Assembly (NCBI RefSeq): GCF_001984155.1 | Contig: NZ_MTQO01000054.1 | Location: forward strand, 372,001 to 436,000 | Length of the DNA: 64,000 bases | Direction: 5' to 3' | From: Actinosynnema sp. ALI-1.44 | GTDB taxonomy: Bacteria; Actinomycetota; Actinomycetes; Mycobacteriales; Pseudonocardiaceae | Shown: positions 1 through 14,449 of the stretch, one piece after another | Numbering within the stretch: the stretch's first letter is position 1 | Layout of the letters: each line of letters opens with the position of its first letter | Position numbers and translations under genes: made by a program | Notes under the pieces: model-generated | The model's database searches: none | Told to the model about the DNA's origin: nothing | What the model saw: the letters and a program-made list of their open reading frames with translations, nothing else

Positions 1-762
1 CTCGTCGTCGCGTCACCGCAGTACAAGCTCCAGGCCGAAGGGGAGGCGGCACCGGACGAGAGCGGGAGGGCGGAGCTCGAAGCGGCGATCCTCCGGGACA
101 ATCTGGCCAAGAACCTCCGCGACGGGACCGAGCGCATCCTGCCGGTGGTCCTGCCGGGGCGATCGGTGCGGGAGATCCCCGCCTTCCTCAACCCCCACTC
201 CGCGACCAGCTTCCGCGTCGACGAGTTCACCGTCGGGGGGATCTCGGACCTGCTGGCGGCGATCACAGGGCAGGGGCAGTATCCGTTGCCCGAGCTCGGG
301 CAGTGGCCAGGCGATGCCGGTGCCGACGAGCGCCCGGTGACGACGCTGCTCGCGGGGATGCGCTGGCTGACCAGCAGTCCGGGTCTCCGGCCGGGCAGCG
401 CGAAGATCAACGGTGTGCGGTACGACAACAGCGTCGTCTCCCGGCACCGGCCGTCCACAGGGGAACCACGGGTTTTCGTCGAGGTGGACCTCGACCGGGC
501 CTACCGGCGGATGACGTCGGTTGCCGGAGTCCTCGACGACGCGAGCGAGCCGTTCCAGGTCGGGCACTTCGTGATCAGCGTCGACGCCCACGTGCGATGG
601 CAGCGGAAGGCCGCGCTGGGCAAACCGGTGGCCGTCGACCTGGACATCGCGGGCGCGCGGACGCTGCGCCTGGAGATGCACCGGGGTGCCGCCAGGAGCT
701 CGGCGGTGCCGACGGCGACAAGACTGTCCGAACTGGCCTGGGGAAACCCATGCCTGTCGTAG
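1..762 (+). CDS. SEFIR protein with C-terminal NPCBM-like domain (5' partial)
   Basis: The frame is open from the first base to a TAG at 760-762, so the start lies outside the window and 253 residues are visible. Residues ~1-95 are the second half of a SEFIR (TIR-like) domain: the strand LVVASPQYK, then ILPVVLPGRSVREIPAFL and the closing helix GISDLLAAIT match the same landmarks in the complete SEFIR protein at 1684-2982. Residues ~105-250 resemble an NPCBM/NEW2 carbohydrate-binding β-sandwich (INGVRYDNSV, VEVDLDRAYRRM, VAVDLDIAGARTLRLEM, ending LAWGNPCL). SEFIR domains mediate homotypic signalling and in bacteria often act as conflict effectors or adaptors; the role here is inferred. It is followed after 219 bases by a Crp-type regulator on the same strand. 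The SEFIR call is firm; the NPCBM call is a motif-level judgement. Confidence 0.75.
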   Translation, partial: LVVASPQYKLQAEGEAAPDESGRAELEAAILRDNLAKNLRDGTERILPVVLPGRSVREIPAFLNPHSATSFRVDEFTVGGISDLLAAITGQGQYPLPELGQWPGDAGADERPVTTLLAGMRWLTSSPGLRPGSAKINGVRYDNSVVSRHRPSTGEPRVFVEVDLDRAYRRMTSVAGVLDDASEPFQVGHFVISVDAHVRWQRKAALGKPVAVDLDIAGARTLRLEMHRGAARSSAVPTATRLSELAWGNPCLS

Positions 763-875
763 CAGGTTGGTACGACATTCGTTGTGGTACAGGGAAGTTC
801 GTTGCCGCTTATCATGCGAGCCGAATTTCGATCTACCACTCGACGGCGGGGAGTGACCTCGTGGCGCAGTACCCG

Positions 876-891
876 CCGGTATCGATACCGG
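876..891. promoter_or_regulatory. 16-bp perfect palindrome upstream of the Crp-type regulator
   Basis: CCGGTATCGATACCGG reads identically on both strands. It lies about 90 bases upstream of the preferred GTG start of the Crp/Fnr-type gene, in a 219-base gap. A dimeric HTH protein could bind it, and autoregulation by the adjacent regulator is the simplest idea. It does not match the classical Crp consensus, so the link is inference. Confidence 0.45.
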
Positions 892-981
892 TCGGCCGTC
901 GCAGCCGGACATACTCCACCGCTGTCACCCGTTCTGGTGACCACCCCCCTTGATGTCGGAAATGAACAGGAGTCGTTTTCC

Positions 982-1668
982 GTGGCCGGGAACAAGTTCA
1001 ACAGCTCGGGCGCAGGATGGCCGCAACTGAGTCCCGCCGGGCAGCGGCGACTCAGCATCGCGGGAACGCACCGCCGGTGGGCGCGCGGTGACGATCTCAT
1101 CCGTGAAGCGGAGCCGGCGTGTGGTGTTCTGCTGATCAAGCGCGGCCGGGTGAAGATAAGCTCCGCCACGCCCTGCGGCAGGCACGTGATCATGGCTATC
1201 CGCGGGCCGGGTGACCTGCTGGGGGAATCCGCCGCGATCGACGGCAGGAGCCGGTCCGCGACTGTCACGGCGCTCACCGACGTGGACGCGATCTCCCTCA
1301 CCGGCAAGGAGTTCACCGAACTGCTGCGGACCGCGCCCGATGTCGTCTTCGAGCTCTTGGTCATGCTGACCGGGCGGCTGCGCGAGTCGACCAAGCGGCG
1401 GCTGGAGTTGAGCGTGTACGATGTGCCCACGCGCACAGCACGATGGTTGCTGGACGCGGCCGCACAGGGCGAACCGATCAACGGCGGCCCTGGCTACGCG
1501 ATCCGGCTGACGCAAACCGAACTGGCGGACGCGGTGGGGGCGTCGCGAGTGTCCGTCGCCAACGCATTGCGCGTGTGGCGCGAGGAAGAAGTCATCGCCA
1601 CGAGTCGCGCTGTGTTCCGTGTACTGAAGCCGGAAGTCCTCCGCGGATGGGCTTACCACGACCATTAA
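982..1668 (+). CDS. Crp/Fnr-family transcriptional regulator
   Basis: 228 residues. The N-terminal ~125 residues form a cyclic-nucleotide-binding-type β-roll (RRWARGDDLIREAEPACG, VLLIKRGRVKISS, IRGPGDLLGESAAIDGRSRS). A dimerisation helix (LLVMLTGRLRESTKRRLEL) and a winged HTH (LTQTELADAVGASRVSVANA) follow. The GTG at 982 is chosen because CAGGAG lies 9 bases upstream and it gives the usual family length; the frame also stays open upstream to 784, where the translation looks non-coding. The effector is unknown: the β-roll has a GE...RS phosphate-cassette-like segment, but cAMP binding cannot be judged. The SEFIR gene starts 15 bases after its stop, so the two are probably cotranscribed and this protein may control the SEFIR effectors. 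Confidence 0.88.
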   Translation: MAGNKFNSSGAGWPQLSPAGQRRLSIAGTHRRWARGDDLIREAEPACGVLLIKRGRVKISSATPCGRHVIMAIRGPGDLLGESAAIDGRSRSATVTALTDVDAISLTGKEFTELLRTAPDVVFELLVMLTGRLRESTKRRLELSVYDVPTRTARWLLDAAAQGEPINGGPGYAIRLTQTELADAVGASRVSVANALRVWREEEVIATSRAVFRVLKPEVLRGWAYHDH

Positions 1669-1683
1669 GGACCAGCGAGAGCC

Positions 1684-2982
1684 ATGTCTCAGCCGACCCG
1701 CGTGTTCGTCACCTACACCCACGATTCCGAGGAACACAAGAACCAGGTGCTCGCACTGGCCGCGTTCCTGCGGAGTCACGGCCTCGATGTCCAACTGGAC
1801 GCGTGGGACAGCTACAAACGCAGGGACTGGTACGAATGGGGTCAACGGCAGATCATGCTCGCCGACTTCATCCTCGTCGTGGTGTCGAAGCAGTACCGGC
1901 GGGTGGGCGACGGTGAGGTCGAGTCGATGGAGAACCGGGGTGCGCAGGCCGAGGTCGCCGCGCTCAGGGAGGTGATGCAGTACGACAGGCCACAGTGGAT
2001 CCAACGGATACTCCCGGTGCTGCTGCCGGGGCACAGTCCCGACGAGATCCCGCTGTTCCTCCAGCCGTTGACCGCCGACCACTTCAAGGTGAAGGAGCTC
2101 ACCCTGGCCGGTGCGGACTCGCTGATCCGCGTGCTGACCGCGCAACCGGCGAACGCCCTGCCACCCATCGGCACCGTGCCCACCCTGGGCCAGAACCCGG
2201 TGCCGGAGTTCGCGTCGAAGTCGACCGGTACCGGGTTGGTCCAAGTCGACGGTGCACAGGGTGAGGCGGTCGTCTTCGCGGTGCAGGATGGTGATCTGCA
2301 CGTGACCAACCCGCCGAACGTTCCGCGAGATCAACTGAACGAAACGCCGTGGTCGCGACTGACCGCACCGCTGAAAGTGGACTGGCACGACGAGCCGGGC
2401 ACGTCAGGTGTGCTCGAACTGCATCTGGTTCCGGTCGGCGAGGTGGACCCGTTGCAGACGCGTCGTCTCCAGTCGATGCCCGACGCGTTGGCCGCATTGG
2501 GCAGGCGGGAAGGACTGTTCACGAACGCCGAGGGACTGTCGTGTGATTCGTCCGCCGACTCGGCGTGGGCGAAGGCCGTCTCCCGGCCCAACGGGGACGC
2601 GGCCGGTCTGGCTGTGACGCGCACCGGATGCCGTACGGCGTGGTCAGCGTTGCCCCGTGACATGGTGGGTTCGATACTGGACCGCCATGACCTCGTACAG
2701 CGGATCGGTCTGCTGCTGCAGACACTTGTGCGGGTCGAAGGGTCACTGCCTGCCCGGGTCGCGCCCGCGGTCGGTATCCGGGCCGCCGCCGCGGTCGCCG
2801 AAGGTTCCGTCGCGCGGATGCCGAGGACATCGGCGGTGTTCCCTTCGCGACTGAGGCAGGAACACATCCGGTTGCCCGCTGCGGAATCGGTCTCGGCGAG
2901 CTTGCTCGTCGACGACTCGGCCGAGGTCGTCGAGGAGTTGGCGGCCAGGCTGCTGGCGGAGTTCCGCGAAGCATCCAGGTAG
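1684..2982 (+). CDS. SEFIR domain protein with uncharacterised C-terminal region
   Basis: 432 residues. Residues ~4-150 form a full SEFIR domain: RVFVTYTHDSEEHKNQV (box 1), GLDVQLDAWD, DWYEWGQRQIMLADFILVVV, then WIQRILPVLLPG. The remaining ~280 residues match no domain I can name; they include a β-rich stretch near 190-260 and a helical C-terminus with an EVVEELAARLLAEF helix. SEFIR domains are TIR relatives first described in eukaryotic IL-17 signalling; bacterial versions cluster with STAND ATPases and are thought to be effectors or adaptors in immunity-like systems. The Crp-type regulator lies 15 bases upstream. The gene is convergent with the SEFIR/STAND operon of the other strand. No signal peptide or membrane segment is seen, so it is probably cytoplasmic. 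Confidence 0.82.
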   Translation: MSQPTRVFVTYTHDSEEHKNQVLALAAFLRSHGLDVQLDAWDSYKRRDWYEWGQRQIMLADFILVVVSKQYRRVGDGEVESMENRGAQAEVAALREVMQYDRPQWIQRILPVLLPGHSPDEIPLFLQPLTADHFKVKELTLAGADSLIRVLTAQPANALPPIGTVPTLGQNPVPEFASKSTGTGLVQVDGAQGEAVVFAVQDGDLHVTNPPNVPRDQLNETPWSRLTAPLKVDWHDEPGTSGVLELHLVPVGEVDPLQTRRLQSMPDALAALGRREGLFTNAEGLSCDSSADSAWAKAVSRPNGDAAGLAVTRTGCRTAWSALPRDMVGSILDRHDLVQRIGLLLQTLVRVEGSLPARVAPAVGIRAAAAVAEGSVARMPRTSAVFPSRLRQEHIRLPAAESVSASLLVDDSAEVVEELAARLLAEFREASR

Positions 2983-3024
2983 TCGGTGGTGGCCTTTGCG
3001 GGGCAGACAGAGGCCACCACCTCA

Positions 3025-3360
3025 TCACTGGTTGGCGAAGACAGCACCACCCTCACCTGGAGTGTTGTGCTGGCTGTGGGTGGCAGCCAGCTTCGCCACC
3101 GTGGTCGTCAGCTCCGGTTTGCGGCTGAGAGCACCGGTCATTCGCAGTTCCCACATCTGGGCCACGTCGTGCTCCGCGCGATCACGGTCGCCTGCCGCGG
3201 CGATCAGCTGGGCGTCCGCGCGCAGCAGCCCCTCGACGGAGGGAAGATCGGCGAACAGGTGGATGAAGTCGTCGAGGTCGTCGGTCCACTTGCCGGATCT
3301 GAGTTTCTCCGCGACAGCTCGACCGGCGGCGGCGACAACAGGATCACGTGAGCTTGACAT
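3025..3360 (-). CDS. Small helical protein encoded after SEFIR gene
   Basis: 111 residues, no family recognised. The composition is helical and rich in Ala, Asp and Leu (AVAEKLRSGKWTDDLDDFIH, SVEGLLRADAQLIAAAGDRD), with no membrane segment. The ATG overlaps the last 17 bases of the upstream SEFIR gene, and GGAGGG lies 8 bases before it, so coupled translation is likely. Its place as last gene of the STAND - SEFIR - small protein operon suggests a partner or accessory subunit of the SEFIR protein, which is inference from position only. Confidence 0.65.
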   Translation of the reverse strand: MSSSRDPVVAAAGRAVAEKLRSGKWTDDLDDFIHLFADLPSVEGLLRADAQLIAAAGDRDRAEHDVAQMWELRMTGALSRKPELTTTVAKLAATHSQHNTPGEGGAVFANQ

Positions 3361-4519
3361 GGTTCGTTCCCTCCACTGCGATCATTCGGCTCGTCACAGA
3401 CGGGCGCTCGTAGCGATCCCGTTTGGTCAGCGCGCGTAGCAAGGCATCGGCACCGCGCGGTGTGCAGGAGTCGACCGGATAGTGCCCGGTGTACTTCGAA
3501 TTCAGGAACAAGGGGAAGTCGTCCGCGGAGCCGTTCGGCAGGACCACCGGCAGTATTCTCCGCAACCACGTCACGCGGTCGTCTGTCAGCCTGTCCCGCA
3601 GGATGGCCAGCTCCTGCCGTACGTCGTGGTCGCCGTGGCCGTCACCGGCTGCTTTGCACTCCGGGGAGGCGACGACGAGGACGAAGTCCGCCTTGGTGAT
3701 GTTGTCGAGTGCCCACATGGTCCGGTCCTGCCGGTCGTCATGATCCCAGCGGTCGATGTGTGTGTCCATTCCGCACTCGCCGAGGAACTCCCCGAACCGC
3801 AACACCGCTTGGGTGTGGCCAGGGTTGTCGTCGGCGTACGTCACCAGGACCCGAGGCGAGCGGGATACCAAGAGTTCCGTGCGCTGAACGAGGTGAACGA
3901 CCGGCTTCACATCGGGCGTACCGCGACAGGCGGTCAGGTCGAGATCGAGTCGTTGTGGCCGCGCCACCGGCTGGAGCCGCAGCGCTGCCACACCTGGGAT
4001 GTCGTACCTCGCGGTGATGGTGACCGTGAGCTTGTCCTGCCCGGCGGGTACGAGCGCCATCATCCAGGCGGTATGGGCACCCGGTCGCACTTCTCCGGTG
4101 TGCCGCCAGCGGATCTCGGACCCGCCCAGCCCGAACACGTCCACCAGCGGCGTCATCGCGGGCATGCGGGCGTCGTCCGGACCGCCGGGGCCGTCGCACG
4201 GAACGAAACACAGCGCGTCGTTGAGCACAGTGGACGTTGCCGGTTGCGGGGCCAGCACTGTCTTCGGCAACAGGTCGACGATCGAGGCGTCCCCGAGCGC
4301 GAAGCCGATCTCCAACCAGGCCGGTGTTCGGCTCCGCGTGTGGATGTCGACGTCGTAATCCGCCCTGATCAGGTATCCGTCACGCGGTTGGCCAGTCGGG
4401 CGCACCGGACGCACCTGCCAGTCGCACAACCGGACAGTCCCGATCCGGACCTCGCCGCACGTCCCTGTCCGCGGATCCACCATGACGAGTTCGACCGCTG
4501 CGCTCCGAGGCTCTGGCAC
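3344..4519 (-). CDS. SEFIR protein with novel N-terminal domain
   Basis: 391 residues. Residues ~1-220 are an unrecognised, mainly β region (TGTCGEVRIGTVRLCDWQV, WLEIGFALGDASIVDLLPK, KLTVTITARYDIPGVAAL). Residues ~222-365 are a SEFIR domain: SPRVLVTYADDNPGHTQAV, CGMDTHIDRWD, MWALDNITKADFVLVVASPE, LRRILPVVLPNGSADDFPLF. This reverses the domain order of the other two SEFIR proteins here, where SEFIR is N-terminal. The assigned start is a GTG at 4519 without a clear Shine-Dalgarno; the Met 12 residues in is an alternative. It begins 72 bases after the HTH-NB-ARC-TPR gene on the same strand and overlaps the following small gene, so the three probably form one operon in which the STAND protein senses or regulates and the SEFIR protein signals. 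Confidence 0.8.
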   Translation of the reverse strand: MPEPRSAAVELVMVDPRTGTCGEVRIGTVRLCDWQVRPVRPTGQPRDGYLIRADYDVDIHTRSRTPAWLEIGFALGDASIVDLLPKTVLAPQPATSTVLNDALCFVPCDGPGGPDDARMPAMTPLVDVFGLGGSEIRWRHTGEVRPGAHTAWMMALVPAGQDKLTVTITARYDIPGVAALRLQPVARPQRLDLDLTACRGTPDVKPVVHLVQRTELLVSRSPRVLVTYADDNPGHTQAVLRFGEFLGECGMDTHIDRWDHDDRQDRTMWALDNITKADFVLVVASPECKAAGDGHGDHDVRQELAILRDRLTDDRVTWLRRILPVVLPNGSADDFPLFLNSKYTGHYPVDSCTPRGADALLRALTKRDRYERPSVTSRMIAVEGTNHVKLT

Positions 4520-4591
4520 AGTGCAACAGTAGGATCATCGACGGGGCAGCCCAAGGCCATCGAGATGTCAGATCCGCGTCACCCGCGTGCT

Positions 4592-6781
4592 TCAGGCGAA
4601 GTCGAGACGGGCCCGTGCTTCGCCCAGCACAAGGGGGTTGAACACCACACCGTGCTCGTCGGCTCGTGCCCACCACTGCTTGGCCAGATCTCGATCACCC
4701 CGCATCGCCGCGATGTTGCCCATGCCGATGATGGCCCGTGTGAGCTCGTAGTCGCTGTCGACGAATTCGGCGAGATCCAGCGCACCCTGGTACTGCCGTT
4801 CGGCCTCGTCCAGTCTTCCGGCGTGGAAATGGACCCACGCGAAGCAGTTGAGAGTCATCAACACGTCGCTGGGCAACTGCGCCAGGTCCCGTGCCTCCTG
4901 CGCGTGGCTGAGTGCTTCGTCGAACTGCTCCAGCTCAGTCAGGACGAAGGCCAGGCCACGCAGTGCGATCACGGTGTTGCGCGTCCGCCCTGTCCTGCGG
5001 TAGATCGCCAACGTCCTGGTCAGATCCCGTTGTGCCGCCGCGTGGTTGCCCATCGAGAGGAACGCCCACGCCCGACTGGACACGGCGTCCGTGGCGCCAC
5101 GCTCGTCCATCACCTGTTCGAAGTGCGCCTCGGCCCGGTTGTGGCAGTCAACGGCTGCTGCCACGTCACCGACCTCAAGGTGGACCATGCCGAGGTTGTT
5201 GAGGATCATCCCGGCTCCAGCGACGTCACCGGCTTGCCGGGCCGAACCCAGCGCCAGTTCGTGGGTTCGGATCCACGGATCCAGGAGACGCTCCCGGAAG
5301 TAGAACGAGCGCAGGATGTAGGTCAACTGCCAGCAGTGCCGGTGCCGTCCATACCTGGCGGCGAGTTCGATGATCTGGGTGAGCGCGGGCCACTGCTCGC
5401 GCAGCCAGGCCAACGCGCCGTGCGCGTCCGTGAACGGGATGTCCTGCTGCGACAGCGTGTCGACAGTGGGACGGAACCGGTGGGGCTCGACGAGTCGATC
5501 CGCGGCGTGGACCGCTGTCAGCGCGTAGTCCACCAGCCGCCCTGCCGCGGCGGCCCGCTCCGCCTCGCCGATCTCCGGCAACGCGTACCTGACGGCGAAG
5601 GTGCGCATCAGATCGTGCAGTTCGACGTGTCCGTGCGGATCCAGGGTCAGCAGGTGGGCGTCGTGCAGACGATCCAGCAGGCGGTCGGTCTCACCCGGCG
5701 GCAGATCGGCCAGCGCGTGCACCGCGGCTGGCTCGGCGGTGGTGGCGGGGTGCAGGGCCAGCAACCCGAACAGCCACCGCTGGTCGTCGGGCAGCGAGTC
5801 GTAGGAGACCTTGAACGCCGCGGCCACGCTGCGTTCACCGTCGTCCAGGGAAGTCAGCCGTGTTCGCTGGTCGGCGAGCCGCTGCATGAGCCTCGCCGCG
5901 CTCCAGCCGCCCGCGACCAGCCGTGCGGCCGCGATGCGGATCGCCAGCGGGAGCGTTCCGCAGTACGCGACGAGATCAGCCACGACGTCATCGTCGACGG
6001 ACACCGAAGGCCCTGCCACCGAACGGAACAGCGCGGTGGAGTCCGCGGGCGACAGCAGGTCCAGGGAGATCGGCCAGGCGTCGTCCAGCGCGGGCAGCCG
6101 CCCTCGGCTCGTGATGACGACGCGGCAGCCCGGCTCGGCGGGCAGCATCAGCCGGACCTGGTCGGCGGTGCGGACGTTGTCGAAGACCAGCAGCATCCGG
6201 CGACCGCGCAGGTGTGCCTGGAACAGGTTCGCCCGGCCGTCGACGTCGGCGGGGATCTTCTCGGCAGGCACGTCCAGCATGCCGAGCACCCTGCGCAGGC
6301 CGTCGGCGGGACTCAGAACCGGTGCTCCGGGCGTGTGCCCGCGCAGGTCGAAGAACAGACAGCCGTCCGGGAAGTCGTCGATTGCCGAACGAGCCGCGGC
6401 AATGGCGATGGCCGTCTTGCCCACGCCTGCCATACCGTGCACAACGCATACCCGGATCGCGTCCTGGTGGACCAGTATCGACGACAACTTGGCCAATTCG
6501 GAAGCGCGCCCGATGAAATGCCGGGTGCCTGCCGGAAGTCCCACCATGCCGGGCGCCGGAAGTCGATCGGACTCCGCCGTGTGGGTGGCCAGCGCGGCCA
6601 GCCTGCCTCCTGCTTTCAGTGCTCTGTCGCACGCGTTGGCGATATCCCGGCTGACGTTGGCCTTACCATTTTCGATCTTGCTGAGGTATCCCTTGGACGC
6701 GGGGACTGCCAGGGCGAATGCCGCCAACGACATCCCGGCGCCCTCGCGGAGGCGTTTGAGCTCCGATCCGAACTCGTCCAT
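4592..6781 (-). CDS. HTH-NB-ARC-TPR STAND ATPase (copy 1)
   Basis: 729 residues. Residues ~1-60 are an XRE-type HTH (SKGYLSKIENGK). A NB-ARC ATPase follows, with Walker A GMAGVGKTA at ~116-124, Walker B RMLLVFDNV at ~195-203, the sensor strand VVITSR and a late MHD-like VELHDLM. Helical TPR-type repeats fill the C-terminal ~300 residues (AGMILNNLGMVHLEVGD, DLTRTLAIYRRTGRTRN, EALSHAQEARDLAQL). This is the AfsR/NLR-like STAND design, in which ligand binding to the repeats would switch the ATPase and the HTH would bind DNA. The ATG at 6781 is chosen because GGAGG precedes it by 8 bases and its N-terminus aligns with the paralogue at 12275; the frame is open 100 codons further upstream. It heads an operon with a SEFIR gene and a small gene and is divergent from the partner gene at 7188. 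Confidence 0.9.
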   Translation of the reverse strand: MDEFGSELKRLREGAGMSLAAFALAVPASKGYLSKIENGKANVSRDIANACDRALKAGGRLAALATHTAESDRLPAPGMVGLPAGTRHFIGRASELAKLSSILVHQDAIRVCVVHGMAGVGKTAIAIAAARSAIDDFPDGCLFFDLRGHTPGAPVLSPADGLRRVLGMLDVPAEKIPADVDGRANLFQAHLRGRRMLLVFDNVRTADQVRLMLPAEPGCRVVITSRGRLPALDDAWPISLDLLSPADSTALFRSVAGPSVSVDDDVVADLVAYCGTLPLAIRIAAARLVAGGWSAARLMQRLADQRTRLTSLDDGERSVAAAFKVSYDSLPDDQRWLFGLLALHPATTAEPAAVHALADLPPGETDRLLDRLHDAHLLTLDPHGHVELHDLMRTFAVRYALPEIGEAERAAAAGRLVDYALTAVHAADRLVEPHRFRPTVDTLSQQDIPFTDAHGALAWLREQWPALTQIIELAARYGRHRHCWQLTYILRSFYFRERLLDPWIRTHELALGSARQAGDVAGAGMILNNLGMVHLEVGDVAAAVDCHNRAEAHFEQVMDERGATDAVSSRAWAFLSMGNHAAAQRDLTRTLAIYRRTGRTRNTVIALRGLAFVLTELEQFDEALSHAQEARDLAQLPSDVLMTLNCFAWVHFHAGRLDEAERQYQGALDLAEFVDSDYELTRAIIGMGNIAAMRGDRDLAKQWWARADEHGVVFNPLVLGEARARLDFA

Positions 6782-6810
6782 CCGCTGATCCTCCCCTCCG
6801 GCACGGTGGA

Positions 6811-6851
6811 AGAAAAGACCTGGCCGGCGGCCCCCTCGGCTGCCGGCCAGG
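6811..6851 (-). terminator. Intrinsic terminator-like hairpin in the leader of STAND gene copy 1
   Basis: On the minus strand a perfect 10-bp stem (CCTGGCCGGC pairs with GCCGGCCAGG; plus positions 6842-6851 and 6819-6828) is followed by TCTTTTCT, about 30 bases before the start codon at 6781. A terminator between the likely promoter (beyond ~6900) and the coding region would act as an attenuator. The other STAND copy also has a GC-rich hairpin ahead of its start, at 12205-12237. Confidence 0.55.
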
Positions 6852-7045
6852 CTGTGTTCCGCTCCAGCGGGGCGGTGACCACCCGCAGTGCGGCACGACT
6901 TCGGGAGCGCGTTCCGCGCACCACCCTCTCGGGAATCATTCACGACAACCCGCTGCGGTACCGTCAAGAAATTGACATTTCCACGCTGCCAGTAGCTCAT
7001 CATTGGTCGGCATTCGAGGAGTCGCAAGCGGTTCCGTGCCGCACG

Positions 7046-7102
7046 TGTTCCGGAAACCTTCACCCTGCGAATATCCTGCACGGTTTCCTGTTCTCGGAAA
7101 CC
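7046..7102. promoter_or_regulatory. GTTTCC/GGAAAC inverted repeats in divergent STAND/partner promoter region
   Basis: GGTTTCC at 7082-7088 and GGAAACC at 7096-7102 form a perfect inverted repeat with a 7-base spacer. A second core, TTCCGGAA, lies at 7048-7055 inside GTTCCGGAAACC. The segment is 86 bases before the partner gene at 7188 and ~270 bases before the STAND start at 6781. The same words are clustered in the other divergent region at 11931-11960, which suggests a shared operator, perhaps for the HTH of the STAND proteins. Confidence 0.5.
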
Positions 7103-7187: not shown

Positions 7188-8171
7188 ATGCCAGCCAAGA
7201 TCACCGCGCTCGTCGAGGACTTGAAAGCACTGCGCACCGGTTTGGGAGTCGAAGATCCGCATCTGGTGACCCGGGCGGGCGTGACCATCCGGCGCGTCAG
7301 CGGCGTCACCGACGACGACTCGCCGGGAATCGTCCGGGAGAAGATCAAGAGCTGGCTCGGCCGAATGTTGGCCCAGTTGCCCGAGGCGACCGCCCGGATC
7401 GGGCGGGCCGCGTTCGGTATCGACGGACCGGGCGACCTGCCCTACCTGGCGCGACTGGAGAACCTCGGCCGGGTCGTCGACAGGGAGGTCCGCACGATGC
7501 AGCGCAGGGCCGACCACATGGTCGGTCGCATCGCCGAGATGGCCGTCATCCACCGGCAGCCCGACGCCGCGGCCACCACACCGTTCGACCTGCCCGAGCC
7601 CCTGCCCCGCCACCCATGGCACTCCGCGCAGGTGCGCGTGGACCTCATCCTCGACCAGCCCGAGATCGAGGTGTTCGAGAACCGCCGCATCGTCAGCCAC
7701 GTCGACGGTCTCGCGGAGATCACGCACTGGCTCAGCGTTCCGCCGGTCGAGCACCCGCCGAACCCGCTGGACCTGGCCGACCTGGGGATCACCCTGCTCG
7801 GCGGCGGCGACATGCGCACCCAGCCGCGGATGCTGTCGTCCAGCCGGGTCGAACTGGTCCTGCACCCGCCCAGCCCCCTGAACACCGGCGAGCACCACGA
7901 GTTCTTCTTCCGCGTCCGCGTCGCGACCTTGCTGCCGTTCTACGTGTGCACACCGCGGTTCGCCTGCGACGAGTTCCAACTGCGGGTCCGGTTCGGCCGT
8001 GACCACATCCCGGAGCGGATCTGGCTGATCGACGGGGAACTGTCGATGGAGGCCGCCGATCCCGTGCCCGCGCGACCCGCGCTGCGGGCCGACAACGCGG
8101 GCGAGGTCCACGTGAAGTTCGCCGACCTGGCCCCGTCGTCCTCGTACGGTATCGGCTGGCAGCCGAGTTGA
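7188..8171 (+). CDS. Uncharacterised STAND-partner protein (copy 1)
   Basis: 327 residues, no named family recognised. Residues ~1-130 are helical (LKALRTGLGVEDPHLVTRAG, REKIKSWLGRMLAQLPEATA, VVDREVRTMQRRADHMV), a layout I have seen in uncharacterised actinobacterial proteins near NB-ARC genes. Residues ~150-327 are β-rich (AQVRVDLILDQPEIEVFENR, ELVLHPPSPLNTGEHHEFFF, FACDEFQLRVRFGRD) and end in a YGIGW motif. The ATG at 7188 is used because it aligns with the start of the paralogue at 11855; both have a GAAGGTG Shine-Dalgarno. It is divergent from the STAND gene at 6781. It may be a regulator or ligand-binding partner of that STAND protein; function is unknown. Confidence 0.72.
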   Translation: MPAKITALVEDLKALRTGLGVEDPHLVTRAGVTIRRVSGVTDDDSPGIVREKIKSWLGRMLAQLPEATARIGRAAFGIDGPGDLPYLARLENLGRVVDREVRTMQRRADHMVGRIAEMAVIHRQPDAAATTPFDLPEPLPRHPWHSAQVRVDLILDQPEIEVFENRRIVSHVDGLAEITHWLSVPPVEHPPNPLDLADLGITLLGGGDMRTQPRMLSSSRVELVLHPPSPLNTGEHHEFFFRVRVATLLPFYVCTPRFACDEFQLRVRFGRDHIPERIWLIDGELSMEAADPVPARPALRADNAGEVHVKFADLAPSSSYGIGWQPS

Positions 8172-8258
8172 CATGCCGTGCCTCCCGTCTTCGGTGGTGG
8201 GTACGACTTCACTGCGTCCGGCCTGTGCCGGGAACGTCACGGAGGCGTCAGTTGGGTG

Positions 8259-10811
8259 TCAGTTCCTCGATGACGTCGTGGGGATCGTGCCGACCGCCGA
8301 CGTCCGCGCCCACTGCCGCAACGCGCCTTGACGATCCCGCAGTGCGGGCGTCACCTGGTCGAGAAACGGCCGTGCCCGCTTCAGCTTGTGCTGTCTCAGC
8401 AGACAGCGGCTCAGGTGGAACCGGGTGAGCTGGCTCTCCGGATGACCGCTGCCGAGCACCGCGATCTGCCGGGTGAGCACCTGCTCGAACACCTCGGTGG
8501 CGGTCTTCCAGTCCCCGCGACCCATGGTCGCCAGGCCGGTCCACTGGATGGTCCGCAACGTGAAGGGGTGTTCGCCGCCGAGCGCGGCGGCTGCTCGCCG
8601 TTGCGCGTCGGCCAGGGCGTCGAGCGCCTTGCCGTGTTCGCCGCTGCCGATCAACGCTCGGCCGTGCAACACCATCAGCTCGAGTGACAGCGGACTGTCC
8701 GAGCCGTACCACTTGGTCGACCTGTGCAACTCCGCCCTGACCCGGCGGATGACGCGGGTCAGCCGGTCCGGTTGCGGCAACGCCGTGATCAGCTCGCCCT
8801 CCACGAGGACTGCCGTTGCCTCACGTGCCACGTGGTGCCGAGCGATTCCCGCATCGGTGAACGCCGAGAGCACTCGTCGCGCGGTCGCCGACGCGTCGGT
8901 CACCTCGCCTGTCGCCACCTGGATCCTGGCCAGTTCGACCGCGGCGACAGGCCAGACACCGGTGTGGGTGTCGTGGGGATGAGCCTGCCGGATCACGGAG
9001 TGGAGCTCGTCCACGGCGAACTCACCCCGCACCCTGAGCGCTCGTACCCTGGCCAGCCCGGCCCGTTGGCGATCTGCTTCGGACAGCCAAACCGGAGCGG
9101 CACCGTGCAGGCGGATGAAGGCGTGGTGGTGGAAGACCTCGTCGGCTTCGGCGTACTCACCGAGGACGTCGTGGGCGGTGGCCGCGATCAGCCGGGCATG
9201 GAACTCCGATCGGACGTTTCGCTCCTGCTGCGCCCGGCTGATGAGAGTTTCCGTGTGCTGCAACGCATTCCTTGGCTCACCCATGGCCAGTGCCAGCCGT
9301 GCGGCCGCTTCGGCATCGTCGGCCGCCCACGCGATTCCCAGAACTCGTTCGCAGGCAGACCTGGCCGCTGGGATGTCGCCGCGTTCCTCGTGTGCGGCCG
9401 CCGCCGCACGCATCAGGGAACGTCTGACAGGCGAAGGAATCGACATGTTCGATGCGAGAACCGTCGCGTGTGTACAGTCGTCCAGCTGGCCTGTACGCAG
9501 CTCGTCGACGACAGTCCGCGCGGCACTCCTGTTCAGCGAACGCAGCAAGTCCGGGTCGAGATCCTGCTGGACCGCAGCGGCCACGAGGGCGTTCAGCCGC
9601 CACGACTGGCTCGCGGTACCGGCGACCCGGCTGAGCAGACCGTGCTCGTCCAGTTCGGCCAGTGCGTCCACGACGAGGGTGGGCGCGTGTCGGCCGAGCA
9701 GGTCGGCCACTCCACGGACCAACAGCGCGCCACTGACCGGCGCCGTCGACAACACCGACGCGAACCCCAGCACGATCCGGGCATGTCTGCTGCGGGCGCG
9801 GACGAGATCGACCAGGTGACCGGGATTTCCGGGCCAGTACGCGCCGTCGAGCTCCTCTTCTTCCACAGTGGACAGCCCGGCGAGAACCACCCGGCCACCT
9901 GACCACCACGGTGGTGCGGCTCGCATGGTCACGATGGTGTGGACGTTGGCTGACGGGACGATGAGCGCGTTCAACGCCGCCGGGGCCAGACCGTCGGGGA
10001 CGTCGTCGACCACCCAGAGGACGGCGTCGCCGGTCCGCTCGGCGAGCGTTTCTCTCGCCTGCCGGGGCCCCATACCGGACAGGTCCAGTCCGAAACGCTC
10101 GCGAGCCACCGTGTTCACCGCGGCGGCGAAGCGTTCCACCGGCTGATCGACGCCTGCCATGCTCGTCCAGACCACACCTCCCGGGTACGCGTCCCCGAAC
10201 ACCAGGCTGTACTGCTCGGCTAGCGCTGTCTTGCCCGTCCCCGCCGGGGCCTCGACGACGACGACGCGGGCCCGGCTGCGCAGTTCACTGTGGATGGACC
10301 ACATCTCCCGGTACCGGCCGCTGAACCGGCGTGGCCGCGACAGGCGTCCCCGCAACCGGCCGAGCCGGTCGGCCGACTCGGCGCACAGCGGCCCTTGGGC
10401 CCGTTCGACTTTGCCTGCCACCGCGTCCGCGAGCGGTTCGGTGTCGGACTCCCGTCGCCACGAGAAGTGGTGGGCGTCGGCGAGGTCGCCCGGCGCGATG
10501 TGCCGGTCGTCGGGTTCCGGGTTCACGATCAGCACCCGGTCGAGCGGGTCGCCCAGTCGGCGGGCCGCCAGGAACGCCCTCGTCAACGCCCACTGGCAGG
10601 CGAACTTGGCGTGATAACGCCGTGAGTAGAACGCGATCAGGACAGCCGACGAGTCCAGGGCACGCCACGTGCTGTCGGTGACTCCGTCGAACAGATGAAT
10701 GTCCTTGTCGCGGAAGACGGCCAGGCCCCGGTCGCGCAGCGCCCGCTCGATGCCATCCGCGGCCCCCTCGTCTGTCCACCTGCAGCTCAGGAAAACCGCC
10801 GGGTCGTTCAT
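8259..10811 (-). CDS. TIR-STAND ATPase-TPR protein
   Basis: 850 residues. Residues ~1-120 are a TIR domain (AVFLSCRWTDEGAADGIERA, GLAVFRDKDIHLFDG, SSAVLIAFYSRRY). Residues ~160-420 are a P-loop STAND ATPase with Walker A EAPAGTGKTA at ~187-196 and Walker B AVLWVVDDV at ~263-271. The C-terminal ~400 residues are TPR-like helices (TEVFEQVLTRQIAVLGSGHP). In the TIR helix that normally carries the catalytic Glu (WCxxEL), the sequence reads ACQWAL, with Ala75 at the Glu position, so NADase activity is doubtful. The ATG at 10811 follows AGGAGG. It sits between the two STAND/partner modules, 147 bases downstream of the partner gene copy 2 stop on the same strand. It is probably a cytoplasmic sensor or effector of the same island. 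Confidence 0.86.
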   Translation of the reverse strand: MNDPAVFLSCRWTDEGAADGIERALRDRGLAVFRDKDIHLFDGVTDSTWRALDSSAVLIAFYSRRYHAKFACQWALTRAFLAARRLGDPLDRVLIVNPEPDDRHIAPGDLADAHHFSWRRESDTEPLADAVAGKVERAQGPLCAESADRLGRLRGRLSRPRRFSGRYREMWSIHSELRSRARVVVVEAPAGTGKTALAEQYSLVFGDAYPGGVVWTSMAGVDQPVERFAAAVNTVARERFGLDLSGMGPRQARETLAERTGDAVLWVVDDVPDGLAPAALNALIVPSANVHTIVTMRAAPPWWSGGRVVLAGLSTVEEEELDGAYWPGNPGHLVDLVRARSRHARIVLGFASVLSTAPVSGALLVRGVADLLGRHAPTLVVDALAELDEHGLLSRVAGTASQSWRLNALVAAAVQQDLDPDLLRSLNRSAARTVVDELRTGQLDDCTHATVLASNMSIPSPVRRSLMRAAAAAHEERGDIPAARSACERVLGIAWAADDAEAAARLALAMGEPRNALQHTETLISRAQQERNVRSEFHARLIAATAHDVLGEYAEADEVFHHHAFIRLHGAAPVWLSEADRQRAGLARVRALRVRGEFAVDELHSVIRQAHPHDTHTGVWPVAAVELARIQVATGEVTDASATARRVLSAFTDAGIARHHVAREATAVLVEGELITALPQPDRLTRVIRRVRAELHRSTKWYGSDSPLSLELMVLHGRALIGSGEHGKALDALADAQRRAAAALGGEHPFTLRTIQWTGLATMGRGDWKTATEVFEQVLTRQIAVLGSGHPESQLTRFHLSRCLLRQHKLKRARPFLDQVTPALRDRQGALRQWARTSAVGTIPTTSSRN

Positions 10812-10958
10812 CGTCCTCCTCAGTCTCACCGTCCTCCCACGATGCCGCAGGTGGTCGGTGGCTGACAGACGCCAACCCGGACAGATACACGACAATCCGC
10901 CGTCAACGGCAAGGCCATCCGATGCCGTACGAGTTCGCGGCCCGCAGGTCGACGAATC

Positions 10959-11855
10959 TCACCTTGACCTCCCCGGAGCTGTCCGCACGCACGGCCGCGC
11001 GCTCGGGACCGGGTCCGCCGCCTCCATCGAGAGTTCGCCGTCGATCAGCCAGATCCGGTCGGGCACGCGGTCGCGGCCGAACCGGACTCGCAGGTGGAAC
11101 TCGTCGCACCCGAAACGCGGTGTGCAGACGTAGAACGGCGACATCTCCGGCAGCCGGAGGCGGAAGAAGAACTCGTGGTCGTCGCCCGGGGCCAGCGGTT
11201 GCGGTGGGCGGAGGGCGAACTCGAGCCGGTTGGTCGACACCATCCGCGGCGGTGCGGACATGTCGCCGCCCCGGAGCACCGTGATGCCGAGCGCGTCGAG
11301 GTCCACGTGGTCCGTCCGGTCGCGCGCCTGCGGGATGGTCAGCGAGTGCCGGATCTCGGTCAACCCGTTGGTGTGGCTGATGATTCGCCGGTTCTCGAAG
11401 ACCTCGATCTCCGGCTGGTCCAGGACGAGGTCCACCTGGACGAGCGCGGTGTGCCACGGTTCGCCCGCGTGGGGATCGGTCGCGGAGGACTGGGTGAGCG
11501 CCAGTTCGGCGATGCGTGCCACGATCTGGTCCGCGCGGCGCTGCATGGTGCGCACTTCCCGGTCGACTGCCTGGCCGAGTGCGCGCAGCCGCGCGAGGTA
11601 CGGCTGATCACCGGGCCCGTCGAAACCGAACACGGCCCGCCCTGTCCTGGCAGCGGCGTCGGGCAATTGGGCGATCAGCCTTTCCAGCCACATTCTGATC
11701 TTCTCGCGGGCAATCGCGGGTGACTCGCCATCGGCGACACCACTTGCCCGTCTGACGGCCGATCCCGCGCGTGCCACCAAATGCGGATCTTCGACGCCCA
11801 GCCCGCCGCGCAGCGCTTTCAGCTCATGGACGAGCGCCGGGATCTTGGTCGACAT
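10959..11855 (-). CDS. STAND-partner protein (copy 2), frameshifted near the C-terminus
   Basis: 298 residues as read. It is a paralogue of the protein at 7188-8171 along almost its whole length: helical N-terminus (LKALRGGLGVEDPHLVARAG), β-rich C-terminus (LVLDQPEIEVFENRRIISH, WLIDGELSMEAADPVP). After ADPVP the frame runs into PSARPCVRTAPGRSR and stops at 10959. One frame over, the sequence continues AAVRADSSGEVKVRFVDL and ends YGIGWPCR at 10903, which matches the paralogue's C-terminus. One missing base at about 11002-11008 explains this. The 40-50 lost residues include the conserved YGIGW end, so the protein may be damaged, or the base may be a sequence error. The ATG at 11855 follows GAAGGTG. 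It is divergent from STAND gene copy 2. Confidence 0.75.
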   Translation of the reverse strand: MSTKIPALVHELKALRGGLGVEDPHLVARAGSAVRRASGVADGESPAIAREKIRMWLERLIAQLPDAAARTGRAVFGFDGPGDQPYLARLRALGQAVDREVRTMQRRADQIVARIAELALTQSSATDPHAGEPWHTALVQVDLVLDQPEIEVFENRRIISHTNGLTEIRHSLTIPQARDRTDHVDLDALGITVLRGGDMSAPPRMVSTNRLEFALRPPQPLAPGDDHEFFFRLRLPEMSPFYVCTPRFGCDEFHLRVRFGRDRVPDRIWLIDGELSMEAADPVPSARPCVRTAPGRSR

Positions 11856-11930
11856 CGCGCCACCTTCGCTTCACGTCATCGCCGGGCGAAGTCTACCCAC
11901 AGCGCTGTGTGCCGCGACCGCGCCCCGGCG

Positions 11931-11960
11931 GGTTTCCCGGGTTTCCGGAAACAGGGAAAC
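11931..11960. promoter_or_regulatory. Near-palindromic cluster of GTTTCC/GGAAAC words
   Basis: Two GGTTTCC words (11931-11937 and 11940-11946) are followed by two inverted GGAAAC words (11947-11952 and 11955-11960). The central GTTTCCGGAAAC (11941-11952) is a perfect 12-bp palindrome, and the 30 bases together form an almost perfect larger one. It lies 75 bases before the start of partner copy 2 and ~310 bases before STAND copy 2. Another GGGAAAC lies at about 12008. The same words occur at 7046-7102. It is probably an operator shared by both modules. Confidence 0.55.
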
Positions 11961-12140
11961 GCGCAGGAAGAACGGTGTTGCCCCGGTTTCTCCCAACCGC
12001 ACCACGGGAAACACTGCACAATTCGGCAATGCGGTTCCACGATGTGTTTCACCGGCACCACGGTAAATCAATCAGGTGATTCGCGTCGACCGGATCGGTC
12101 GTCGGGATCGCCGCCGCTGAAAGGGGAGGGGTGGATCGCA

Positions 12141-12194
12141 ATGCACACGCACATCGTCGCACTGCTCGACGTGCTGGCCACGCTGCTCGGCTGA
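12141..12194 (+). CDS. Possible 17-residue hydrophobic leader peptide
   Basis: An ATG preceded by a strong GGGGAGGGG ribosome-binding site opens MHTHIVALLDVLATLLG, then TGA. The peptide has a His-containing start followed by a mostly hydrophobic stretch. It ends 10 bases before a perfect 12-bp hairpin and 80 bases before the STAND gene at 12275. It could be a leader peptide for attenuation or a small membrane-active peptide. Only the ribosome-binding site and position support it; a short ORF of this size can occur by chance. Confidence 0.4.
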   Translation: MHTHIVALLDVLATLLG

Positions 12195-12204
12195 GCGCAC
12201 ACGC

Positions 12205-12237
12205 CCCGGCCGTCCGTCGAGGGGGCGGACGGCCGGG
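12205..12237 (+). terminator. GC-rich hairpin in the leader of STAND gene copy 2
   Basis: CCCGGCCGTCCG (12205-12216) pairs perfectly with CGGACGGCCGGG (12226-12237) across a 9-base loop. No U-run follows, so it could be a weak terminator, an attenuator or an RNA-stability element between the 17-codon ORF and the STAND start at 12275. The rest of 11856-12274 holds the operator cluster at 11931-11960, an inverted repeat CGACCG-GAT-CGGTCG at 12087-12101, and no recognisable gene. Confidence 0.5.
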
Positions 12238-12274
12238 CCGTCATTGTCAGCACTGACGACAGGACACTGGAGAC

Positions 12275-14449
12275 ATGACCGAATTCGGGCCTGAATTGCG
12301 GCGACTTCGTGAAGCCGCCGGGCTGTCACTGACCAAGCTCGCATCGATCATCCCCACTTCCAAAGGCTATCTCAGCAAAATCGAGAACGGCCGAGTGCGC
12401 GTCAACCCCGGCATCGCCGAAGCATGCGACAAAGCGCTGGGCGCCGGTGGTGAATTACTCGCACTGGTTCCCAGGGCGTCCCGGAGTGCCACCCGGGGAC
12501 TGATCGGGCTGCCGTACGGGACCCGGCATTTCGTCGGGCGAAAGACCGAGCTGGAAACACTGTCGTCGATGGTGGTGCGGCAGAACGCGGCCCGGATATG
12601 CGTGGTGCACGGGATGGCGGGCGTCGGCAAGACAGCGGTCGCGGTCGCCGCGGCCCGCGCGGTGACCAGCGAGTTCCCGGACGGTTGCCTGTTCCTGGAT
12701 TTCCAGGGGCACACCCCCGGTGCGCCGGTGACGACACCTGCCGAAGGCCTGCGCCGCGTGCTGGCGTTGCTGGAGGTGCCTGGCGACAGGATCCCCTCGG
12801 ACGTCGACGGCCGCGCCAACCTGCTGCAGGCGATGCTGCGGGACCGCCGGATGGTGCTCGTGTTCGACAACGTCCGGACAGCCGGTCAGGTCCGTCCCAT
12901 CCTGCCCGCGGAACCAGGCTGCCGCGTGATCATCACCAGCCGTAACCGGCTCCAGGCGTTGGACGACGCCTGGTCGCTCTCCCTGGACGGCCTGCGTCCC
13001 GTGGATGCCGTCGAGTTGTTCCGCGCTGTCGCCGGGCCCGTGGTGGCCGACGACGTCGTGGAGGACATCGTTGCCCACTGCGGCGCGCTCCCGCTGGCGC
13101 TGCGCATCGCGGCCGCGCGGTTCGTCGCCGGTGGCTGGTCCGCGGCGGGTTTCGCCGACCGCCTCGCCGATCAGCACACACGGCTGCTGCCTTTGGACGA
13201 CGGCGAACGAAGTGTCAGTGCCGCGTTCAAGGTTTCCTACGATGCGCTGCCCGACGACCAGCGGCGGATCTTCGGTCTGCTTGCCCTGCACCCGTCCTCG
13301 GCGGTCGAAGTGTCCGCTGTGGACGCGATGGCTGATCTCGCCCCAGGCGAAGTGGACCGTTTGCTCGACCGCCTGCATGACGCGCACCTGTTGACCCGCA
13401 CCACCGACGACCACGTCGAGGTACACGACCTCATAGGCGCGTTCGCGCTCAGGTACGCACTGCCCGACATCAGTTCCGAGGACCAGGCAGCAGCCGCGCG
13501 GCGGTTGACGCGGTACGCGCTTGCCCATGTCCAAGCGGCGGACCAGCTGATCGAGCCGCACCGGTACCGGCACGGCACCGCTCCCGACGCACCGCCGAAC
13601 CGGCGGTTCGACGACGCAAGCACGGCGATGGCCTGGCTGCGTGCCCAGTGGCCCGCACTCGAGCGGATCATCGAGCGCGCACCCGAGTTCGGCCAGCATT
13701 CCGAGTGCTGGCAACTGGTCCACGCACTGCGCTCGTTCTTCTTCCGCGAGCGACTGCTGACGCCGTGGATCACCACGCACCGGATCGCCGTGGAGTCGGC
13801 GCTGCGGTCCGGTGACATGGCAGCCGCTGGGATGATCTCGAACAGCCGGGGGATGGCCCACCTGGAACTCGGCCAACTGCCCGAGGCGATCGAATGCCAT
13901 GACCGCGCCTGGACGTACTTCAAGCAAGCAGGGGACGAACGCGGCGCCAACGACGCGATGTCGAGCCGTGCCTGGGCTTTGCTCTCCGCCGGTGATCTCG
14001 ACGGCGCGTACCGCGATCTCACACAGGCGCTGGCCGCCTACCGTGACACCGATCGGCCGCGCAACGTCGCGATCGCCTTACGCGGCATAGCGTTCACGCT
14101 CACCGCGATGGGCAGGTTCGACGAGGCCGCGAGCCACGTCCGCGAGGCGCGGCAGCTGGCGCGGATCCCGCACGACGTCCTGATGACGATCAACTGCGGC
14201 GCGTGGATCCATTACCGGACCGGCAGGTTCGCCGACGCCGGACGCGAGTACCGGGCAGCTCTGGACATCGCCGAGAACATCGCGAGCGACTACGAGACGG
14301 CGCGGTCGATGACCGGGTTGGGGAACGCGGTCGCGCGGCTGGGTGACCGCGAGGCAGCGGAGCGCTGGTGGGCCCAGGCTGACGGGCTGGACGTGCCGCT
14401 CAACCCGTTGGTGGCCGCGGAGGCATGGGCACGCGCCAACAGCGCCTGA
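12275..14449 (+). CDS. HTH-NB-ARC-TPR STAND ATPase (copy 2)
   Basis: 724 residues, a full-length paralogue of the protein at 4592-6781. HTH at ~1-60 (SKGYLSKIENGR), Walker A GMAGVGKTA at ~113-121, Walker B RMVLVFDNV, sensor VIITSR, MHD-like VEVHDLI, then TPR-like helices (AGMISNSRGMAHLELGQ, DLTQALAAYRDTDRPRN, EAASHVREARQLARI). The ATG at 12275 follows GGAGAC. Unlike copy 1 there is no SEFIR gene after it: the next gene is a small membrane protein on the other strand, so any effector partner would be elsewhere, for instance the TIR-STAND protein. It is divergent from partner copy 2. The two copies appear to come from one ancestral divergent module duplicated in inverse orientation. Confidence 0.9.
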   Translation: MTEFGPELRRLREAAGLSLTKLASIIPTSKGYLSKIENGRVRVNPGIAEACDKALGAGGELLALVPRASRSATRGLIGLPYGTRHFVGRKTELETLSSMVVRQNAARICVVHGMAGVGKTAVAVAAARAVTSEFPDGCLFLDFQGHTPGAPVTTPAEGLRRVLALLEVPGDRIPSDVDGRANLLQAMLRDRRMVLVFDNVRTAGQVRPILPAEPGCRVIITSRNRLQALDDAWSLSLDGLRPVDAVELFRAVAGPVVADDVVEDIVAHCGALPLALRIAAARFVAGGWSAAGFADRLADQHTRLLPLDDGERSVSAAFKVSYDALPDDQRRIFGLLALHPSSAVEVSAVDAMADLAPGEVDRLLDRLHDAHLLTRTTDDHVEVHDLIGAFALRYALPDISSEDQAAAARRLTRYALAHVQAADQLIEPHRYRHGTAPDAPPNRRFDDASTAMAWLRAQWPALERIIERAPEFGQHSECWQLVHALRSFFFRERLLTPWITTHRIAVESALRSGDMAAAGMISNSRGMAHLELGQLPEAIECHDRAWTYFKQAGDERGANDAMSSRAWALLSAGDLDGAYRDLTQALAAYRDTDRPRNVAIALRGIAFTLTAMGRFDEAASHVREARQLARIPHDVLMTINCGAWIHYRTGRFADAGREYRAALDIAENIASDYETARSMTGLGNAVARLGDREAAERWWAQADGLDVPLNPLVAAEAWARANSA

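Follow-up and report, generated by a model that had tools for sequence, protein, structure and literature searches.

A candidate micropeptide-linked control module with exchangeable immune-like effectors in an accessory island of Actinosynnema

Divergent STAND/partner pairs, their micropeptide and their operator

The stretch analyzed here, hereafter the window, comprises 64,000 nucleotides of Actinosynnema sp. ALI-1.44 (RefSeq assembly GCF_001984155.1, contig NZ_MTQO01000054.1, positions 372,001 to 436,000). In our labels for genomes (G), contigs (C), and loci (L) it is G000:C51:372001-436000, part of an 11.7-Mb genome. Near its left end lie two divergent gene pairs, each joining an HTH-STAND gene to the gene of what we call the partner protein. 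The module to which they belong consists of the HTH-STAND gene, a gene for a micropeptide of 15-19 residues on the same strand, a nested operator, and the partner gene pointing the other way. This STAND/partner divergent pair was found again in many genomes. Genes were called with a GC-frame script written for the analysis, and domains were assigned with Pfam, PADLOC, and NCBIfam scans.

Both HTH-STAND proteins, STAND1 (4592..6781, minus strand) and STAND2 (12275..14449, plus strand), combine an XRE-type HTH, an NB-ARC domain, and TPRs. NB-ARC (PF00931) matched with E-values of 2.5e-13 and 5.3e-12, TPR_12 and other TPR models matched behind it, and the Walker motifs read GMAGVGKT and LLVFDN/VLVFDN (LLVFDN in STAND1). 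With a P-loop and superstructure repeats, both are predicted STAND NTPases of the NB-ARC/AP-ATPase clade. Their best NCBIfam STAND matches, HaaT and AfsR, were far under cut-off (273 and 242 bits for AfsR, cut-off 1430). STAND1 most likely starts at 6781 rather than 7081 because its HTH begins there and matches STAND2; both copies therefore have about 0.4 kb of divergent intergenic DNA. Partner 1 (7188..8171, plus strand) has 327 amino acids. The open reading frame (ORF) of partner 2 (298 amino acids) spans 10959..11855 on the minus strand, and its C-terminal homology carries on in another frame down to 10906, reflecting either a sequencing error or real decay.

Between the copies, the STANDs are 62.6% and the partners 65% identical. 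An earlier note, made from the window's letters alone, had described divergent pairs at 4592-8171 and 10903-14449 that are paralogous in both genes. The paralogy held up, and two gene limits need correcting: 7081 is most likely not the start of STAND1, and the limit at 10903 mixes two frames. The same note saw a mirror-image duplicated module, and that layout is indeed present. A recent local duplication was ruled out by the STAND tree (18 rows), which joined copy 1 with Kibdelosporangium persicum and Actinocrispum and left copy 2 outside this group (99/96). The two pairs thus appear to be paralogues of old date or to have been acquired separately; the tree of the partners, also of 18 rows, did not resolve the relationship of copies 1 and 2. 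The copies may work together, given that copy 2 has the only full micropeptide found in this strain and copy 1 the partner with a complete C-terminus.

The micropeptide ORF lies on the STAND strand behind a ribosome-binding site and encodes an M/V-H/Q-T-H head followed by a hydrophobic tail whose last residue is in most cases Gly (LLG, LFG, VFG). Reading the divergent intergenic DNA of window copy 2 revealed a gene of this kind at 12141..12194 (plus strand), with its ribosome-binding site and a 17-residue product, MHTHIVALLDVLATLLG. Such an ORF precedes the HTH-STAND gene in 42 of the 44 distinct loci with the divergent arrangement. The exceptions are window copy 1 and L060, where the stub VHTHFFLLF is present. 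Among the 42, locus L033/L160 has its STAND cut to a 70-residue HTH stub (L160:6104-6634), with peptide, small membrane protein, and partner retained. The peptide of L035/L162 begins MHTD rather than MHTH. Residues swap mostly among hydrophobic ones and the M[HQ]TH head is constant. Codon-position GC content of 67/30/92% (659 codons in 40 distinct ORFs) fits the pattern expected of translated DNA in GC-rich genomes. Given its shortness, the gene is likely missed by ordinary gene callers, and the earlier note overlooked it along with the shared operator and a small membrane protein.

We rejected the idea of a chance ORF. What is specific is a short hydrophobic ORF with a well-placed ribosome-binding site, not the start motif, which alone was not enriched: in the own genome, RTGCANACNCAY occurred at 42 sites and its reversed control at 39, and a scan of 150 family genomes for GGAGGN{3,9}RTGCANACNCAY yielded 32 rows, compared with 27 sites for the control (hand count). 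Among 30 of the 42 motif loci read in the own genome, a short ORF with the motif start behind GGAGG occurred only at the C41 partner locus, as a stub; the window site is the other such ORF among the sites read. Two of the 32 rows from the 150 genomes had no locus to read. Of the 30 loci read there, the four with full hydrophobic short ORFs (L119, L121, L122, and L136) and one with a stub (L144) are all partner loci; the three other ORFs of under 25 residues (L116, L132, L143) are less hydrophobic and lie away from partner loci.

GGAAAC/GTTTCC was the commonest 6-mer between partner and peptide, occurring in 42/42 loci (at most 27 in 20 shuffles). The half-sites form nested inverted repeats with 7 and 17 nt as the commonest spacers. 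Pattern scans placed operator 1 (GTTTCC-N7-GGAAAC) at 7083..7101 and operator 2 (nested GTTTCC..GTTTCC/GGAAAC..GGAAAC) at 11932..11960, neither assigned to a strand; exact pairs with a spacer of up to 22 nt occur only at 7083 and 11932 in the whole window. We called an operator wherever at least two half-sites lay within 450 nt upstream of a partner gene, for which the background is 5.7%. It was present in 45/45 rows with peptide and STAND, 4/4 with peptide and no STAND, 2/2 with STAND and no peptide (including window copy 1), 1/6 with a SARP-STAND, and 6/19 with the partner only. These 76 partner rows include both window copies and count L013/L016, L014/L015, and L018/L078 twice; dropping repeated loci leaves 42 distinct loci with peptide and STAND. 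Across the own genome, GTTTCCN{5,20}GGAAAC had 17 sites against 2 in the control, 3 of them in the module.

A GC-rich stem, unrelated in sequence from locus to locus, lies between peptide stop and STAND start in many loci. Measured against mononucleotide shuffles, 22 of the 42 stretches reached z ≤ -2 (in one case -2.0 is a rounded value) and 20 did not; the U-runs are imperfect. The hairpin of window copy 2 lies at 12205..12237 (plus strand; whole stretch z -2.9), and a GC-rich inverted repeat seen by eye upstream of STAND1 (6819..6851, minus strand) has the position of the peptide hairpin elsewhere. Also by eye, -10-like elements precede STAND in the MQTH group (CATACT; CATAAT in L076), in L040 and L041 (CATAAT), and in L043 (GATAAT), which suggests separate peptide and STAND promoters there. 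For the partner, a -10-like element, TA[GC]ACT, lies no more than 130 nt from the start of the gene in 22/42 loci (2.4% of shuffles). In the MQTH group, the micropeptide is directly preceded by the gene of a small protein of about 60 residues with what looks like a single transmembrane (TM) segment.

The two window partners had no Pfam, PADLOC, or NCBIfam match at the thresholds used. Low-confidence models of partner 1 predict a helical N-terminal and a beta C-terminal part; AlphaFold2 on 4-sequence alignments gave a pLDDT (predicted local distance difference test) of 49.8 for the whole protein and 60.1 for the C-terminal domain. Foldseek returned nothing at E ≤ 0.001, a 36-sequence profile gave no convincing PDB match (best E 0.037), and Pfam scans of the 36 members gave stray matches in one or two only. 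Close relatives exist in K. persicum and Actinocrispum wychmicini. The partner was present in at least 123 of 297 family genomes and in at least 1 of the 395 other genomes sampled from the phylum; these counts, like those of TIR-STAND presence, are lower bounds. A paralogue on C41 of the own genome is paired with a SARP-STAND. Operator, peptide, and partner are kept in L162, L165, L180, and L181, where the stretch shown has no HTH-STAND. At L169, operator, peptide, and STAND are present together and the partner lies at a greater distance.

We compared how peptide and protein distances co-vary across 36 complete loci. With HTH, NB-ARC, and TPR distances removed, peptide and partner distances gave a partial r of 0.44, a value reached by 0 of 2000 permutations. 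The TPRs showed no such relation to the peptide (partial r -0.105, p 0.86) and the HTH a weak one (0.19, p 0.025). Within the partner, the N-terminal part co-varied more strongly (0.29) than the C-terminal part (0.17). The set was drawn from 44 sources partly picked after the peptides had been seen, 43 with a peptide and one, L166, without; L182 repeats L014 and was dropped here and from the 43-locus neighbor counts below. That the peptide tracks the partner and not the TPRs points to peptide and partner as a pair, and we regard this as suggestive of a working pair.

Neighboring effector-type genes and the accessory island

The gene behind the partner is tail-to-tail with it in 39 of 43 loci, with a gap of less than 200 nt in 35 of the 39. 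Ten neighboring proteins were domain-scanned and the others judged by sequence. Scanned convergent neighbors encode TIR (L166, L167), SEFIR-NPCBM (L171), and Ser/Thr kinase-NPCBM (L145) proteins, and caspase-DEAD-box helicase fusions are tail-to-tail with the partner at L169:4563-7682 and L179:3182-6322. A PP2C/kinase/vWA set lies beside L180; the TerD found beside L152 belongs to the four neighbors that are not convergent. In the window, partner 1 is tail-to-tail with a TIR-STAND-TPR gene (8259..10811, minus strand) whose product matched TIR_2 (PF13676, E 2.4e-11), TPR models, and, weakly, AAA models.

These associations recur in relatives. Among the matches listed, TIR-STAND homologues at E ≤ 1e-60 in the 297 family genomes filled 30 rows, which merging by hand reduced to 24 genes; 22 of the 24 have a partner gene no more than 10 kb away. 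Likewise among the matches listed, 52 of 150 SEFIR domains lie within 20 kb of a partner, where about 1 would be expected from random placement in 9-Mb genomes. Conversely, only 39 of 150 listed partners have a listed SEFIR domain within 20 kb, so SEFIR is one option and not a constant part. The earlier note had put forward, as an inference, that the island genes form one inducible system and had proposed co-occurrence in relatives as its check: the co-occurrence is strong, which supports that reading in part.

All four SEFIR genes found in the genome fall within C51:364966-375853, a clustering beyond chance. The leftmost in the window encodes a SEFIR-NPCBM protein of 319 amino acids; its start at C51:371803 precedes the window by 198 nt, and the window begins inside the gene (1..762, plus strand). 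The ORF at 1-762 matched bSEFIR (E 4.7e-05) and NPCBM (E 5.4e-06), and the SEFIR domain is complete in the genome (C51:371824-372195). A 432-residue SEFIR protein (1684..2982, plus strand; SEFIR E 2.5e-14) matched the PADLOC bSEFIR model PDLC03957 at E 1.2e-24, the best match being confined to model positions 35-208 of 412, which falls short of the full-length architecture. The protein at 3344..4519 (minus strand) has a C-terminal SEFIR domain (E 1.4e-12) behind an N-terminal region without assignment. Overlapping it, at 3025..3360 (minus strand), gene call and domain scan gave a 111-residue protein of no assigned family. At 982..1668 (plus strand; start by coding score, ORF open from 784) lies a Crp/Fnr-type regulator with cNMP-binding and HTH domains; similar regulators, judged by sequence, lie near partner loci L013, L011, and L063. 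The last island gene (14510..14701, minus strand) encodes a 63-residue single-TM-like protein, MK..LSLSLAAR..GF.LG.AVGYR, a relative of the small protein of the MQTH group. In L061, L067, L068, and L075, a partner without STAND adjoins another small membrane-like protein (...SPRMWRLLISGSLRLFLIS...), and these loci carry one to three GTTTCC/GGAAAC half-sites.

The whole island measures 28.0 kb (C51:358868-386831, about -13,132 to 14,831 in window coordinates), so its right half is window 1-14,831 and some 13 kb more lie to the left. It is accessory: both flanks align in congeners, the island is missing at the syntenic site in 6/6 compared (the genus had seven other genomes), and about 0.4 to 2.5 kb of other DNA occupies the site. 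In G065, the left-flank alignment stops earlier, at 354009, and a related island lies on a different contig. The left part encodes an SF1 helicase, a SEFIR-kinase-like protein, a HerA-like ATPase, a TIR protein, and a ParA/KGGVGR-type protein with TIR-like and CATASP matches. The last of these (L010:17397-19025; a CATASP, or CATRA-associated, match plus a TIR-like stretch) adjoins the TIR gene and has the same neighbors in L013 and L014. K. persicum repeats the order ATPase, 210-residue protein, KGGVGR, TIR, SEFIR-NPCBM, then STAND/partner/TIR-STAND, and Actinocrispum shares the right part. Scans with Pfam and PADLOC bore out the genes listed in the earlier note (SEFIR, TIR-STAND-TPR, two HTH-NB-ARC-TPR, and a Crp-like regulator), and no integrase or transposase was seen among the island genes scanned, a subset of the island ORFs. 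Left of the island, L010:79-1023 (C51:352079-353023) is a NACHT-LRR gene of 314 amino acids, with 1018 in G027 and 1051 in G147. To the right, window 47880-59952 holds ordinary conserved genes, which we take to be cell-wall/division (dcw) genes, placing the island near core genes.

A candidate switch and its alternatives

We favor, tentatively, a reading in which the divergent pairs are copies of a control module of peptide, partner, and STAND that regulates itself and works with interchangeable immune-like effectors; we consider this quite possible, though short of probable. From the module's anatomy we infer how binding, gating, and defense might work. The operator would control both divergent promoters and would most likely be bound by the XRE-type HTH of the STAND protein (possibly by the partner) once its NB-ARC/TPR part is triggered. 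STAND activators such as MalT and AfsR are the model for such HTH-STAND action. The micropeptide would be translated and membrane-seeking, and would act with the partner as a ligand or brake, not only as a cis leader of STAND. Partner and peptide would then decide the release of the neighboring effector, here the TIR-STAND and SEFIR proteins and at other loci TIR, SEFIR, kinase, or caspase-helicase proteins. Release would lead to cell suicide or growth arrest, probably in response to phage. A conserved micropeptide gene beside a conserved control site suggests that a tiny peptide helps run an immune-like switch. In its most specific form, which we hold to be possible and somewhat doubtful, the module would be a peptide-gated innate-immunity switch: a membrane-seeking micropeptide and a lineage-specific partner would form a ligand-regulator pair and, with an NLR-like HTH-STAND as transcription activator, would arm and disarm swappable death effectors (TIR-STAND, SEFIR, TIR, kinase, caspase-helicase) through one nested operator.

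Several observations weigh against this proposal. The micropeptide is absent from window copy 1, and full-length peptides are found in 0/6 SARP-STAND loci, two of which carry stubs (VQTHYLGEC at the C41 locus of this strain, MQTHYLR at L063). Micropeptide genes show no excess of silent changes such as strict sequence conservation would produce, with 229 silent and 702 amino-acid-changing differences in 113 close pairs. Plain identity distances (37 loci, without a permutation test) gave only 0.23 for the partner and 0.03 for the TPRs, and the co-variation handles phylogeny only through STAND distances; linkage could contribute. Neither STAND nor full peptide accompanies 19 partner rows (6 with operator); the partner therefore has wider uses. 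Four of the 43 neighbors are not convergent, and several convergent ones are proteins without assignment. The window's TIR-STAND reads CQWALT where 14/14 other rows matching CQW.[LF]T, the only rows covered by the comparison, read CQWE[LF]T. The Glu is presumably the TIR NADase catalytic residue, and this enzyme may be inactive here. Together with the missing peptide of copy 1 and the frame break of partner 2, this Ala may mean that the local module is partly decayed.

The module is not the only place with operator-like pairs, since the rest of the own genome has 14. Of the 13 of these that were read, 8 lie inside genes and 5 are intergenic or at gene edges (L206, L208, L209, L212, L213). Three or more half-sites lie close together in the two module intergenic regions and in L206 (G000:C29:73006) and L209 (G000:C43:101485), which have three or four; L209 lies just behind the C43 partner gene. 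It is possible that the operator serves a wider regulon beyond the module.

The hairpin invites a purely cis-acting explanation, which we judge unlikely: the micropeptide would be a leader peptide whose translation governs a terminator hairpin before STAND, and a disturbance of translation, for instance by phage, would switch STAND expression. A peptide upstream of STAND in 42/44 loci, often followed by a GC-rich hairpin with unrelated stems, speaks for this. Yet nearly half of the stretches (20/42) are not clearly more stable than shuffles, and STAND seems to own a promoter in the MQTH group, L040, L041, and L043. Moreover, the peptide is retained in four loci without a nearby STAND, all with the operator, and its hydrophobic residues interchange freely, unlike a fixed run of regulatory codons. 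The micropeptide, and with it the related small membrane protein, could alternatively be a weapon, a membrane-active toxin freed when STAND activates the operator promoter. Hydrophobic peptides of 15-19 residues with M[HQ]TH heads resemble Ibs-type toxins, in many loci the peptide has its own hairpin, and one subgroup encodes the single-TM-like protein of about 60 residues just upstream. We find this rather improbable; only about 13 residues are hydrophobic, below the usual length of a TM helix, and protein effectors already adjoin the module in many loci.

Two further alternatives appear weaker. In an actinobacterial analogue of RRNPP systems (Rgg/SHP, ComRS), the peptide would be a pheromone, sensed by the HTH-STAND through its TPRs, that tunes defense to cell density. 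An HTH and TPR receptor does lie beside a short hydrophobic peptide gene with a shared operator, and several peptides end in [D/E]-hydrophobic-LLG/LFG, endings that recall SHP pheromones. This is nevertheless very unlikely: peptide and TPRs do not co-vary once the partner is accounted for (-0.105; 0.03 with identity distances), the peptide persists in the four loci without a nearby STAND, and no export signal is visible in it by eye. In addition, those openings of RRNPP abstracts that name a bacterial group speak of Firmicutes/Bacillota or streptococci. We give equally little credence to the idea that the STAND protein is a common regulator of the AfsR type, which serves metabolism or development, has no immune role, and lies in a gene-rich accessory island by chance. 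The far-below-cut-off HaaT and AfsR matches and the C41 paralogue, which couples the partner with a SARP-STAND, speak for such a regulator. The strong co-location with TIR-STAND and SEFIR genes, the accessory distribution, and the tail-to-tail TIR, SEFIR, caspase, and kinase neighbors in scanned loci argue against it.

The immune systems of bacteria and animals are connected through STAND, TIR, SEFIR, and caspase genes, and to our knowledge the off/on control of the bacterial immune-type genes is mostly unexplained. A control unit conserved across one actinomycete family offers a concrete and cheap handle, namely a 17-codon gene and a 29-bp operator. If the peptide gates effectors, the loci supply dozens of natural peptide-partner pairs for specificity work. 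In that case, we would know of no dedicated component of a bacterial NLR-like system smaller than the micropeptide.

Comparison with known systems

Like leader-peptide attenuators, the module places a short ORF ahead of a regulated gene, and a stem of z ≤ -2 follows in 22 of 42 stretches; unlike them, it keeps the peptide in four loci lacking a downstream STAND and conserves hydrophobicity rather than codons. It shares with RRNPP systems (Rgg/SHP, ComRS) an HTH and TPR protein beside a short hydrophobic peptide gene, and differs in the NB-ARC NTPase between HTH and TPR, in a micropeptide without a visible export signal, and in co-variation of that peptide with the partner instead of the TPRs. 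The NB-ARC-TPR core matches AfsR, as in the AfsR/SARP and HTH-STAND-TPR regulators of Streptomyces, whereas the XRE-type HTH in place of SARP, the divergent partner, the micropeptide, and the tail-to-tail neighbor set the module apart. The bSEFIR anti-phage protein is a lone gene. Here, a SEFIR domain reaches the family cut-off of bSEFIR (PDLC03957), but only the first half of the model matches, and the island has four SEFIR genes plus STAND, partner, and peptide.

A further likeness is to actinobacterial counter-invader systems, for which Burroughs and Aravind (PMC8195603) describe effectors of TIR or kinase type that carry a fused NPCBM and are encoded close to caspases and AP-ATPase-TPR genes. 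Our loci show the same arrangement, with SEFIR-NPCBM and kinase-NPCBM proteins beside NB-ARC-TPR STANDs. A term search of the main text gave no match for SEFIR, short peptide, small peptide, or micropeptide. Among titles and abstract openings in the PMC literature, no description of the micropeptide, partner family, or operator was seen, which is no proof of absence. Set against these sources, this kind of island, with NPCBM-effector, AP-ATPase-TPR, and caspase genes, is already described, and what the present loci add is the micropeptide, the operator, and the partner family.

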